A DNA stretch of 47,686 nt, taken from Phycisphaerae bacterium. Lineage in GTDB: Bacteria; Planctomycetota; Phycisphaerae; JAAYCJ01. Made by a program: the position numbers and the translations under genes. Each line of letters opens with the position of its first letter. Position 1 is the stretch's first letter. This document shows positions 27,138 through 32,740 of the stretch, in pieces. The stretch lies in NCBI GenBank assembly GCA_012729815.1, contig JAAYCJ010000183.1, forward strand, positions 1 to 47,686, read 5' to 3'. The notes beneath the pieces were generated by a model, which worked only from the letters and a program-made list of their open reading frames with translations, had not been told where the DNA came from and made no database searches.

Positions 27138-27358
27138 ATCTGCTTATGGATAATGGATATAACCGGTAACCAATGTCCCAGTGCTAAGTATATTTCCCGC
27201 CCCGCCCGCCATCAAGGGCAATCGGATTCTCTTCCGCCCGGCCTCCGCCGCCCGCAGCGGCCAAAAACGCCCGCCTTTCCCGTTGATATTGGGCCGGTCC
27301 CTTCCTAAAATCTTGAAGGTAGCGAAAATCTTCCGACGCATGTCGGTCAACGAGTTTT

Positions 27359-27643
27359 GGCCGTGCTAGGCGGGGCGCTTGCGGTGCCCTCGTCCGCCTT
27401 CGGGCGGATGCCCGAAATCCGCCATATGCGGGGCTGAACGCTTTCCGAGGCCGTTAACTGCGGGTCGACTGTCGGTGCCGGGTGTTGAGGTTCAGGTCCT
27501 GCGCAACGGCGGATTTGGACAACGGGTCAGGTCCTGACGGAAGCAGCCCACCCAGACACCTCCGGGTGCCGCAGATCAACCTGGGCTGAGCCTGCAACGC
27601 CGGTGGCGGCTCGCAAGTGACGGTCGACGAGAGATGCACGGCC
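27359..27643 (+). ncRNA. ffs: Signal recognition particle RNA, long (Alu-domain) bacterial form
   Basis: The terminal strands GGCCGTGC (27359-27366) and GCACGGCC (27636-27643) are complementary and close a 285-nt RNA. The 5' part (GCCGTGCTAGGCGGGG, then GCGGTGCCCT) matches the Alu domain of the Bacillus-type long SRP RNA. The centre has TCAGGTCCTGCGCAACGG, and the conserved domain IV is GGTCAGGTCC...GGAAGCAGCC at 27525-27547, the Ffh-binding hairpin. The 3' part (GGGTGCCGCAG) also fits. The tetraloop at 27535-27538 is TGAC where most bacteria have GGAA. The RNA lies immediately upstream of dnaX, a very common arrangement. It works with Ffh and FtsY in co-translational targeting. Confidence 0.93.
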
Positions 27644-27728: not shown

Positions 27729-28934
27729 ATGAGCTATACCGTTCTCGCCAGACGATACCGGTCGCAGGACTTCGACGAACTGGTCGGTCAGGAAGCGGTG
27801 GCCACCACCCTCAAGAACGCCATCGAGGCTGACCGGGTCGCCCATGCCTACCTCTTCACCGGCACCCGCGGAGTCGGCAAGACCTCCGCCGCCCGCATCC
27901 TGGCCAAGGCCCTCAACTGCGAAAAGGGCCCGACCCCCAACCCCTGCGGCCAGTGTCCCATGTGCACCGACATCGCCCGCGGCGAGGACGTCGACGTGAT
28001 CGAGATCGATGGGGCCAGCAACACCAGCGTCGATGACGTCCGCGAGCTCCGCGGCAACGCCATCTACCGGCCGTCCCGCGCCCGATTCAAGATTTACATC
28101 ATCGACGAGGTCCACATGATCTCCACCAGCGCCTTCAACGCCCTGCTCAAGACGCTGGAAGAGCCGCCAAGCCACGTCAAATTCATCTTCGCCACCACCG
28201 AACCCAACCGGGTCCCGGTCACCATCCAGTCCCGCTGCCAGCGGTTCGACTTCCGCCCGATCGCCAAGGATAAGATCGCCGAGCAGCTCCGGATGATTCT
28301 CAAAAGCGAAAAAGTGCAAGCCGACGACCAGGTCATCGACCGCGTCGCCCGCCTTGCCAACGGCTCCATGCGCGACGCGTTGAGCCTGATCGACCGCCTG
28401 CTCTCGCTTGGGCAAAAGAAGCTCACCGCCGAGTTCGCCGAGCAGTTCCTGCCCGTCCACCCGGTGGATCAGTACGCTGAACTTGTCCAGACATTTCTCG
28501 ACGCCGACCCCGCCGCCGCCATCCGCAAGACCGAAGCCATCCTCGCCACCGGAACCTCGCCCAATGACTTCTGCTCCGCCCTGGCGGAGTACCTCCGCGA
28601 CGTGATGCTCGCCAGCGCCTGCGACGACGGGACCGATCTGCTGGCCAGTCCCGCCTCCGCCCACGAGACCATCCAGCGCCAGGGCAAGCACCTGCGGCCC
28701 CTGATCTGGGCCTACGGCATCACCGCCGTCGAGGAACTGGCCCGCGGAGTCCGCTTCTCCGAGCAGCCTAGGGCTCTGATCGACTCGGCCATGGTCACCT
28801 TGACCAGCCTGCCCCAACTGGTGGACCTGGCCGCCGCTGCACCGCCCGGCGGACAACCCGCCGCCTCCAGGCCCGAAACCGCCCAGGCGGATCGGGCAAA
28901 AAAAAAATCCGCCCCGGCCGCACGATCTAGCTAG
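27729..28934 (+). CDS. dnaX: DNA polymerase III gamma/tau subunit (zero-frame product)
   Basis: The 401-residue zero-frame product is the clamp-loader ATPase. It begins SYTVLARRYRSQDFDELVGQ. Walker A is FTGTRGVGKTSAAR, the zinc module is CEKGPTPNPCGQCPMC, and Walker B with the sensor region is IYIIDEVHMIS, followed by ATTEPNRVPVTIQSRCQRF. Domain III follows to about residue 370. The frame ends shortly after a run of ten A residues at 28898-28907, which encodes AKKK. A second frame downstream continues with a conserved-looking C-terminus, so two products are likely (see the entry at 28898-29088). The product forms the replisome clamp loader with delta and delta'. The gene lies 85 bases after the SRP RNA. 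Confidence 0.96.
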   Translation: MSYTVLARRYRSQDFDELVGQEAVATTLKNAIEADRVAHAYLFTGTRGVGKTSAARILAKALNCEKGPTPNPCGQCPMCTDIARGEDVDVIEIDGASNTSVDDVRELRGNAIYRPSRARFKIYIIDEVHMISTSAFNALLKTLEEPPSHVKFIFATTEPNRVPVTIQSRCQRFDFRPIAKDKIAEQLRMILKSEKVQADDQVIDRVARLANGSMRDALSLIDRLLSLGQKKLTAEFAEQFLPVHPVDQYAELVQTFLDADPAAAIRKTEAILATGTSPNDFCSALAEYLRDVMLASACDDGTDLLASPASAHETIQRQGKHLRPLIWAYGITAVEELARGVRFSEQPRALIDSAMVTLTSLPQLVDLAAAAPPGGQPAASRPETAQADRAKKKSAPAARSS

Positions 28935-29088
28935 CGACCAGACCCCGCCGACCCAGGACGAACCGGCCAGCCCCGAACCCGTCTCGCCCGCCACCTACCA
29001 AGCCGCCATGAACGAACCGATCGTGCGACGCCTCATCGACGTCTTCGAAGGCCGCCTCATGGACATTCGCCCCGCCAACCGCCGCTGA
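28898..29088 (+). other. dnaX: dnaX slippery A10 run and out-of-frame C-terminal extension
   Basis: The run of ten A at 28898-28907 is followed in the zero frame by a stop at 28932-28934. The +1 (equivalently -2) frame is open from the A-run through to TGA at 29086-29088. It encodes about 60 residues: a Pro/Asp-rich linker (DLASDQTPPTQDEPASPEPV), then YQAAMNEPIVRRLIDVFEGR and a final LMDIRPANRR. The last part resembles the short C-terminus often seen in full-length DnaX (xPLVxxALxLFxGxIVDV), so it looks coding. Joining the frames needs loss of one A or gain of two, by transcript slippage, ribosomal shifting or an assembly indel. Thermus dnaX uses slippage on an A-run in the same way. Confidence 0.75.
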
Positions 29089-29247
29089 GCCCCGTTCCGC
29101 AAGATTTCCCGCGATTTGCTTTTCTCCACGACATATTGAACACTTATAGCGAAGGACGCGGATTTGCGAACCTCAGTGAATACACGGACTTCGAACAGCG
29201 AATTGCTTTGGCGGTCGTAGGAGAAGGCCCCGATCTCCTAGTAGCGG

Positions 29248-29283
29248 CCGGGCGGCGCCGAAATGCGTCGCCCGGTCTTTTTC
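29248..29283 (+). terminator. Intrinsic terminator after dnaX
   Basis: CCGGGCG (29248-29254) pairs with CGCCCGG (29269-29275). Extended by a G-T wobble and CGC/GCG, the stem reaches eleven pairs with a six-base loop, and is followed by TCTTTTT. It lies 160 bases after the extended dnaX stop. A smaller hairpin AGGAGA...TCTCCT (29219-29239) precedes it. The stretch 29089-29247 holds no gene. Confidence 0.85.
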
Positions 29284-29542: not shown

Positions 29543-32500
29543 ATGGGTTCTCAGAAATGGTGTGGCTTGGCGGCGGTGGTAGTGCTGTTGGCGGCGGCAG
29601 GCGCCTTGGCCCAATCCACTCCGAACGCCAAGTGGACGTTCATGGTCTATCTCGATGCGGACAACAACCTCGAGGAAGTAGGTATTGACGACTTTCTCGA
29701 AATGGCCGAGGTCGGAAGCACCGACAACGTTCAGATCGTCGTCCAGTTCGACCGCGTCGCCGGATACAGTTCCGAGTACGGCGACTGGACCGGCACCAAA
29801 CGATTCCGCGTCACCGCGGGTATGGAACCGACCACCGCCAGCGCCGAGGAAGATCTCGGCGAGGTCAACATGGGAGACTCCAACTCCCTGGTCGATTTCA
29901 TCGACTGGGCCAAGGACGAGTACCCAGCCGACAACTACGTCCTGGTCCTCTGGAACCACGGCAGTGGATGGCACAGCCCCGGCCCCGAAGCCGAGCCTCC
30001 GGCGAAAGCCGCTGAGAGTCCTGTGACCGCCCCAACCCGCGAGTCGCCCTTCACCGCCGTCTGCGAGGATGTTACCGACGCCGATACCCTCTACAACAAG
30101 GAGGTTCGCCAGGCCCTCGAAAGCGCCGGAGCTGACATCCGCATCCTCGCCTTCGACGCGTGCCTGATGGGCATGCTCGAAGTCGCCTACGAGATGCGCG
30201 ACGTCGCCGACATCCTGGTCGGCTCGGAGTTGACCGAGCCGGGGCCCGGCTGGGCCTACGACACGCTGCTGCAGGACCTCGTCGACGACCCCGAAATGAC
30301 CGGCAACGAGTTGGCCGCCGCCATGGTCGATCATTACATGGAAAGCTACGACAACTCCTCCGTCAACCTCTCAGCCATCGACCTGTCCAAGGTTGCCGCG
30401 CTGGCCGAGGCGACCTTCGATCTTGGCGATTCCCTCGTCGCCAACTGGGCTCACGACGATCACACCGAAATGGAGCAGGCCGCCACGCTGGTCCTCAACC
30501 GCCTTGACGAGGCCGTCATCGCCAACGGATTCGATCCGGCAACCACGCCGAACGCCAACGGCCTGGCCGTCTACTTTCCGCTCCAGGACGTCTGGTTCGA
30601 CGACGACTACAGCCCGGTCAACATCCTTTTCGCCTCCGGTTCGTGGGATGAGTTCGTCCAGCAATATTACATTGCCATGGAGAGTTCCTGGGTCCGCAAC
30701 ATTCGGCTGGTCGTCCAGTCCTTCGACGACGGCTACGGCAGCAACATCGACCTTGGGCACTTCGCCGAACTGGTCGTCGATCCGCCGGTGACCATCGACT
30801 ACTACACCCAGGAGATCACCAGCGAGACGTCTTTCGAGGAGGTCGGGACGCCTCGCGGCTGGCATGCCGACGACACCCATTGGGGCTACGACCTGCCCTT
30901 CCCCTTCACGTATTTCGGCCAGAGCTACAGTCGTATCTGCATCAGCTCCAACGGCTACATCCTTTTCCAAAGCTCCTGCGCCTCGCTCTCCGACTACACC
31001 AACAGCGAGGCGGAGTTCATCGCCCAACCCATGGTCGCCGCCATGTGGGACAACATCGTCACCGATGAAACCAACCAGGTCGGTGAGGATATCTACATCG
31101 AAGAGTCCGCCGAGCGCGTGGTCATCCGCTGGGTCGGCGAGCTCTACTCCAGCCGCCACCCGGTCAACCTTGAAATGGTTCTCCAGTCCAACGGCATTAT
31201 CGAGTTCCGCTACGGGTCGGGCAACATCAACCTGAGCCCCACCATCGGAATCTCCGCCGGCGACGGGGCCAACTACTATTTGGCGCCTTATAACAACGTT
31301 TCCAACCTCGGTATGGCCCAGACCGTCCGCTACGTTCCGGTCGGACTGATCGATCCACCCACCAGCGTCAGCGCCGCGCCGGGCGACGGATGCGGCAACG
31401 TGGTGCTCAACTGGACCGCCTCCGAGGGCGCCACCGGCTACAAGGTCTTCTACCGCGAAGACCAGGCCGGCCCGCCCTGGGCGCCGCTCAACGACGGCGA
31501 TCCCGCCAGCGGCGAGAGCGTCGGCAACGTCACTTCCGTCGCCATCAGCGGACTGGCCGCCGGCCAGACCTACCACTTCGCCGTCACCGCCTTCGACGCC
31601 GACTTCGAAAGCACGTACTCCGAGTCCGACTCCACCCTCACCGGCACCACCTGCGCGTTCCGCATCACCAGCCAGGTCGACGAAGGCGCCGGCGAACTGA
31701 CCTGCGATCCGCCCGGCCCCACCTACACCTACGGCCAGATCGTCAACCTGACCTTCAAGCCCACCACCTGTTACCGCCTGCGCGGATGGGTCGGCACCGA
31801 CGATGACTCCTCGACCAGCCTGAACAACACCATCCGCATGACCGACGACCGCGCCGTCGGCGTCGATACCGTCATCAGCACCCACGTGGTCAAGACCAAG
31901 ATCCTCGGCGGCCACGGCAGGATCTGCTGCGAACCGCAGCAGTACAGTTACCAGTGCGGGGAAAACATCGCCCTCACCGTTCAGCCGGAATGGGGCTACC
32001 GCGTCCGCGCCTGGCACGGCACCGACAACGACGCGTCCACCGACACCACCAACAGCTTCGTCGTGGACGACGACAAGGAGATCATCGTCGAACTCGAACC
32101 CGTCGCCTACAACCTGAACATCAACGTCCCGACCGGCCACGGCAAAGTCCTGACCCAGCCCGAAGGGTCCAACTTCGGACCCGGACAGACCGTCCTGCTG
32201 ATGGCTGTGCCCGACTGGGACTACCGCGTCAAGTCGTGGAGCGGCGCCCGATACGACAACACCACCGGCTACCTCAACGTCGTCCCCATGGACGGCCACA
32301 AGACGGTCACCGTCGAGTTCATGAAGATCCCCGAATTCAAGCCGCCGGACATCGTCACCTACACGCTGCAGGCCAACGTCGCCGACGGCGAAGGCCGCGT
32401 CGAACCCGACCTGAAGGTCTGCGCTCCCGGCGAGACCGTCACCCTTCTGGCCACCCCGGCCTCCGGGTGGCGGGTCAAGAGCTGGACCGGCACCGACGAT

Positions 32501-32740
32501 GACGCATCGACCGAGAACTTCAACGTCGTCACGGTCGACGCCGACACCGTCGTCAGCGTCGAATTCATGCCCGCCCCAACGCCCGAAGGCGATCCCAACG
32601 ATCCCAACAGCGGCGGGAGCGGCGGCAACCAGGATCCAATCAGCGCCGCCTGCGCTATGCTCGCCACCGTCCTCCTCGGCGCCGTCCTCCTCGGCTTCCT
32701 CGCCATCGCCGCACCGGGCCTGCGAGCCAAAGAGGACTAA
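29543..32740 (+). CDS. Secreted clostripain-family (C11) cysteine protease with Fn3 and InlB-type repeats
   Basis: This 1065-residue protein has a signal peptide (WCGLAAVVVLLAAAGALAQ). A clostripain-like peptidase domain follows (residues about 30-380); the catalytic His lies in LVLWNHGSGW and the Cys in AFDACLMG. Next come a nidogen-like/beta-sandwich region (FPFTYFGQSYSRICISSNGY), a fibronectin type III domain (about 605-705; VLNWTASEGATGYKVFYRE), and four divergent InlB B-type repeats (WVGTDDDSST, WHGTDNDASTDTT, WSGARYDNTTGY, WTGTDDDASTENFN). A Gly/Asn-rich linker precedes a C-terminal membrane segment (LATVLLGAVLLGFLAIAAPG) with an RAKED tail. This is a surface-anchored or sorted protease, probably cutting after Arg if it follows clostripain. 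It has its own promoter and terminator. Confidence 0.88.
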   Translation: MGSQKWCGLAAVVVLLAAAGALAQSTPNAKWTFMVYLDADNNLEEVGIDDFLEMAEVGSTDNVQIVVQFDRVAGYSSEYGDWTGTKRFRVTAGMEPTTASAEEDLGEVNMGDSNSLVDFIDWAKDEYPADNYVLVLWNHGSGWHSPGPEAEPPAKAAESPVTAPTRESPFTAVCEDVTDADTLYNKEVRQALESAGADIRILAFDACLMGMLEVAYEMRDVADILVGSELTEPGPGWAYDTLLQDLVDDPEMTGNELAAAMVDHYMESYDNSSVNLSAIDLSKVAALAEATFDLGDSLVANWAHDDHTEMEQAATLVLNRLDEAVIANGFDPATTPNANGLAVYFPLQDVWFDDDYSPVNILFASGSWDEFVQQYYIAMESSWVRNIRLVVQSFDDGYGSNIDLGHFAELVVDPPVTIDYYTQEITSETSFEEVGTPRGWHADDTHWGYDLPFPFTYFGQSYSRICISSNGYILFQSSCASLSDYTNSEAEFIAQPMVAAMWDNIVTDETNQVGEDIYIEESAERVVIRWVGELYSSRHPVNLEMVLQSNGIIEFRYGSGNINLSPTIGISAGDGANYYLAPYNNVSNLGMAQTVRYVPVGLIDPPTSVSAAPGDGCGNVVLNWTASEGATGYKVFYREDQAGPPWAPLNDGDPASGESVGNVTSVAISGLAAGQTYHFAVTAFDADFESTYSESDSTLTGTTCAFRITSQVDEGAGELTCDPPGPTYTYGQIVNLTFKPTTCYRLRGWVGTDDDSSTSLNNTIRMTDDRAVGVDTVISTHVVKTKILGGHGRICCEPQQYSYQCGENIALTVQPEWGYRVRAWHGTDNDASTDTTNSFVVDDDKEIIVELEPVAYNLNINVPTGHGKVLTQPEGSNFGPGQTVLLMAVPDWDYRVKSWSGARYDNTTGYLNVVPMDGHKTVTVEFMKIPEFKPPDIVTYTLQANVADGEGRVEPDLKVCAPGETVTLLATPASGWRVKSWTGTDDDASTENFNVVTVDADTVVSVEFMPAPTPEGDPNDPNSGGSGGNQDPISAACAMLATVLLGAVLLGFLAIAAPGLRAKED

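Follow-up and report, generated by a model that had tools for sequence, protein, structure and literature searches.

A conserved A10 run and an out-of-frame tau tail in dnaX of a Phycisphaerae bacterium suggest two products by transcriptional slippage

The question raised by this locus is how a bacterium could make the long form of DnaX when the tail specific to that form is not encoded in the frame in which the gene begins. The gene is located in a 47,686-nt stretch of DNA from a Phycisphaerae bacterium, called the window here. The zero frame of dnaX (27729..28934, + strand) encodes a 401-aa gamma-like form comprising the AAA+ ATPase, the lid and part of domain III. The N-terminal gamma/tau region was recognized by TIGR02397 (E=3.3e-128; 427.9 bits against a cutoff of 250), by Pfam DNA_pol3_delta2 (4.6e-46) and by comparison with E. 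coli gamma/tau in the PDB (E=1e-81). Late in the gene there is a run of ten A (28898..28907, +), in the phase GC A_AAA_AAA_AAA_TCC. As originally predicted, the zero frame stops 24 nt past this run, at TAG 28932-28934. The -1 frame also closes early (KKKIRPGRTI*), and the two frames end 33 and 30 nt from the start of the run. With frame 0 and the -1 frame closed, the tail can be reached only through the +1 frame.

As had been claimed, the +1 frame stays open past the run, up to a TGA at 29088, and contains KKNPPRPHDLASDQTPPTQDEPASPEPVSPATYQAAMNEPIVRRLIDVFEGRLMDIRPANRR. The tau-specific tail that it encodes (28900..29088, +) is short, and consists of a Pro-rich linker and a C-terminal DnaX motif, MNEPIVRRLIDVFEGRLMDIRP (29008..29076, +; class consensus DPxVRxxxxLFxGxxxxV); the frame ends in ...NEPIVRRLIDVFEGRLMDIRPANRR. 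We searched all open reading frames of the window with a profile made from the last 36 residues of 104 DnaX proteins of the class that have a frame-0 tail, leaving the window gene out. The +1 frame matched with E=1.1e-10 and the next best frame had E=0.39, bearing out the resemblance to DnaX tails that had been noticed at first. Searching the PDB with the motif gave unrelated weak matches only. We also considered a separate microprotein starting from the ATG at 29008, and rejected it; a relative has no ATG at that position.

There is a large bacterial SRP RNA gene directly upstream of dnaX (27361..27641, +; Rfam RF01854, 114.3 bits, E=2.1e-18), which is probably part of the same transcription unit. 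A consensus scan gave a sigma-70-like promoter match (27283..27311, +) as a possible start of this unit. Downstream of the tail stop there is an inverted repeat resembling a terminator, a hairpin followed by a T-rich tract (29246..29277, +), although the count of such sites was not above that in shuffled sequences. Also downstream of dnaX, at 29543-32740 (+), is a gene for a peptidase of the clostripain family (Peptidase_C11), 1065 aa long and carrying InlB B-repeat-like and fn3 domains.

Runs of this length are rare in the genome. A pattern search of all 5.47 Mb found three A/T runs of at least nine, each exactly A10, and the run in dnaX is the only one inside any gene. Because there is no other such run within a gene, and because the +1 frame behind this one matches the tail profile, the A10 in dnaX is not a product of chance. 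The other two runs are intergenic (L230 1501-1510, G000:C130:11547-11556; L234 1501-1510, G000:C302:17907-17916), one upstream of dnaA and one upstream of a Rex-like regulator.

The run is also conserved in related bacteria. The best named matches were mostly Phycisphaerae/Planctomycetota MAGs, which is what places the class near Phycisphaerae. Among 139 dnaX genes sampled from the class, the longest run was A10 in 86, A9 in 26, A8 in two and A7 in six; 19 had no run of seven or more, and none had a run longer than ten. In 112 of the 139 genes, A9 or A10 fell within one 240-nt slot, at nt 1090-1330 counted from the gene start. The remaining 370,578 bp of these loci held only two runs of nine or more A or T. 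Elsewhere in the phylum, A9 or more was present in the slot in only 7 of 77 sampled dnaX genes, indicating that the run is a trait of the class rather than of the phylum. Eleven class members (L095, L096, L098, L099, L102, L105, L106, L118, L154, L179 and L204) have no A-run of seven or more and a single continuous dnaX frame; these may make tau only, or may use another signal. One gene from outside the class (L279) combines A10 with a short zero frame, and its other two frames both stay open for more than 300 nt.

We determined the frame of the tail in the 111 class genes that had A9 or A10 and a scorable tail. It was frame 0 in 91, -1 in 17 and +1 in two, the window gene and L101. In the remaining gene (L175), the tail was first scored as +1, and this was rejected because the tail is not continuous from the run. 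Genes with the tail outside frame 0 are thus a minority. Whichever frame held the tail, both other frames typically closed soon after the run, within 45 nt in 94 of the 111 genes, compared to 13% at control sites within the gene body and 14% within tails. A FastTree tree built from the N-terminal regions shows at least 18 switches between the in-frame and out-of-frame states, while the run itself is retained by most genes. The count takes in L175 and genes with the shorter or different sites described below, and assembly errors may account for some of the switches.

The nearest relative with a complete dnaX belongs to the same family and is 71% identical. The original prediction had suggested looking in relatives for the run and an out-of-frame tail, and this gene has both. 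Its A10 is in the same phase, its zero frame closes four codons past the run, and the conserved tail is encoded in -1. A continuous frame with no A-run, which had been named as one finding that would count against the prediction, was not what we saw in the nearest kin. The same contrast of a +1 and a -1 tail is seen in a second pair, L101 and L114. The third member of the family (G002) is represented only by a 23-aa piece of dnaX at the end of a contig. Comparison of the two family tails also bears on the idea that the gene is decaying, making gamma alone and carrying the tail as a relic. The shortness of the tail and the closed zero frame would fit such decay. Against this, the tail matches its profile strongly, is open to its own stop and has a high GC3 (0.82), and the relative has kept the motif, with 9 of 26 codons differing synonymously. 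The differences at the three codon positions (12, 7 and 17) are too few to prove selection alone. Taking these together, we regard decay as extremely improbable.

The length of the run in the window gene comes from one metagenome assembly (367 contigs), and a homopolymer error or a mixture of strains could have altered it. The real run would then be A9, with tau in frame 0 and gamma made from slipped transcripts, as in Thermus. Such genes are common in the class, where 17 have A9 in phase 2 with a frame-0 tail, and two genes from the same genus, L180 (A10) and L210 (A9), differ by one A and have opposite polarity. On the other hand, A10 is the commonest length and nothing longer occurs. The gene of the nearest relative, which has A10, is out of frame independently of this one; to bring its tail into frame the run would have to be A8, which is rare, or A11, which was never seen in the class. 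Inverted genes, with the tail outside frame 0, also occur in a genome assembled as a single contig (G142, L216). We therefore consider an error in the run unlikely. If the true run were A9, the gene would be a slippery dnaX of the Thermus type and not an ordinary gene.

Two DnaX forms could also be made by ribosomal frameshifting on the A-run. In E. coli, dnaX makes two forms from one gene by a -1 ribosomal frameshift at A_AAA_AAG, with a Shine-Dalgarno sequence and a stem-loop, and gamma is the shifted product. Stimulators of this type were not found in the window, where the A10 is followed by T, the sequence downstream has no excess of folding (z=+0.56) and no Rfam frameshift element matched dnaX. 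Nor were they a feature of the A9 and A10 sites of the class (n=112), in which the 60 nt downstream folded no better than shuffled sequences (mean z -0.08) and there was no excess of Shine-Dalgarno sequences. Ribosomal slipping on A-runs is mostly -1, and in the window gene a -1 slip would end in the closed -1 frame. This narrows the mechanism to transcription, and a tail in +1 suggests that transcripts slip to 9 or 12 A.

There are signs of ribosomal frameshifting in a few other families, in which the run has been replaced by A7-A8 (for example, A_AAA_AAA_G/C) or by G_GGA_AAA_G, many with a -1 tail. In this small set of 13 related genes, downstream folding was stronger than at A9/A10 sites (z -0.88 for A7-8 and -2.79 for G_GGA_AAA_G; combined -1.6, Mann-Whitney p=0.0005), and there was some excess of Shine-Dalgarno sequences. 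By these sequence features, both kinds of site look ribosomal. Five dnaX genes of sister families (L218, L219, L220, L225 and L221) have no A-run and instead have the G_GGA_AAA_G heptamer followed by a stop, with the tail in -1. Most of them also fold strongly downstream of the heptamer, and here a ribosomal frameshift likely replaced the slippage site. These families, together with E. coli, are what would favor a ribosomal origin of tau in the window gene. Given its +1 tail and its site, we consider that origin very unlikely.

We think it highly probable that the window dnaX gives two products by programmed transcriptional slippage at the A10, with gamma as the default and tau made from slipped mRNA. 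We infer slippage itself, and the ratio of the two proteins that would come with it, from features of the DNA. RNA polymerase would produce messages with varying numbers of A at the run. Those with the templated ten A, or differing from it by a multiple of three, would be read in frame 0 to the stop 24 nt later and would yield the clamp-loader ATPase subunit, a gamma-like protein of about 401 aa. A change of +1 (modulo 3) would lead to an immediate stop, and again to a gamma-like form. With a change of -1 or +2, translation would continue in the +1 frame to make the longer, tau-like form, which ends in the short linker and the C-terminal motif that is conserved. The probable role of this tail, judging from tau of E. 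coli and Thermus, is to connect the clamp loader with the polymerase. The proposal that one gene makes two forms of DnaX by slippage, the longer form needing the shift, is supported, with the evidence favoring transcription.

Similar arrangements have been described in other bacteria. Antonov et al. 2013 (PMC3711429) described 17 dnaX genes with recoding-dependent tau, nine of them with ten A, and proposed transcriptional slippage. As described there, these genes share with the window gene a zero frame that ends near the run (often exactly A10), a tail in another frame and a tau that needs the shift. They differ in that all 17 have the tail in -1 at the DNA level, whereas that of the window gene is in +1. 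The -1 direction is a property of the published set, and the proposed mechanism allows both directions. The window dnaX is a further case of these recoding-dependent genes, in the +1 direction.

In Thermus thermophilus, dnaX undergoes transcriptional slippage at A9 (Larsen et al. 2000, as described in PMC1088944 and PMC5009743). By that account, the two genes have in common a late A-run, two non-tail frames that close nearby and two products. The roles of the frames are reversed: in Thermus, frame 0 encodes tau and slippage is required for gamma, and in the window gene frame 0 stops at 28934. The majority of the class is arranged like Thermus dnaX. Atkins et al. 2016 (PMC5009743) noted that a single nucleotide can reverse the roles when the efficiency is near 50%. 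In the open literature that we searched, we found no description of dnaX slippage in Planctomycetota, nor of a run conserved across a class with free switching of polarity.

We lean toward the view that A9 or A10 makes dnaX of this class nearly frame-agnostic, with slipped messages supplying all three frames. The tail would drift among frames 0, -1 and +1 while the other two stay closed, and in some lineages a ribosomal frameshift site would have taken the place of the run. Selection would favor one open frame and two closed ones after the slip site, which is the Thermus design whichever frame holds the tail, and would not act on which product is the default. Annotation pipelines are likely to label such dnaX genes as truncated or frameshifted, and to miss the tau tail. 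The class amounts to a large natural recoding experiment, in which one essential gene has one conserved slip site and the long product is in 0, -1 or +1 among related species. A comparison of their tau:gamma ratios could reveal whether selection acts on the ratio and whether gamma is important.
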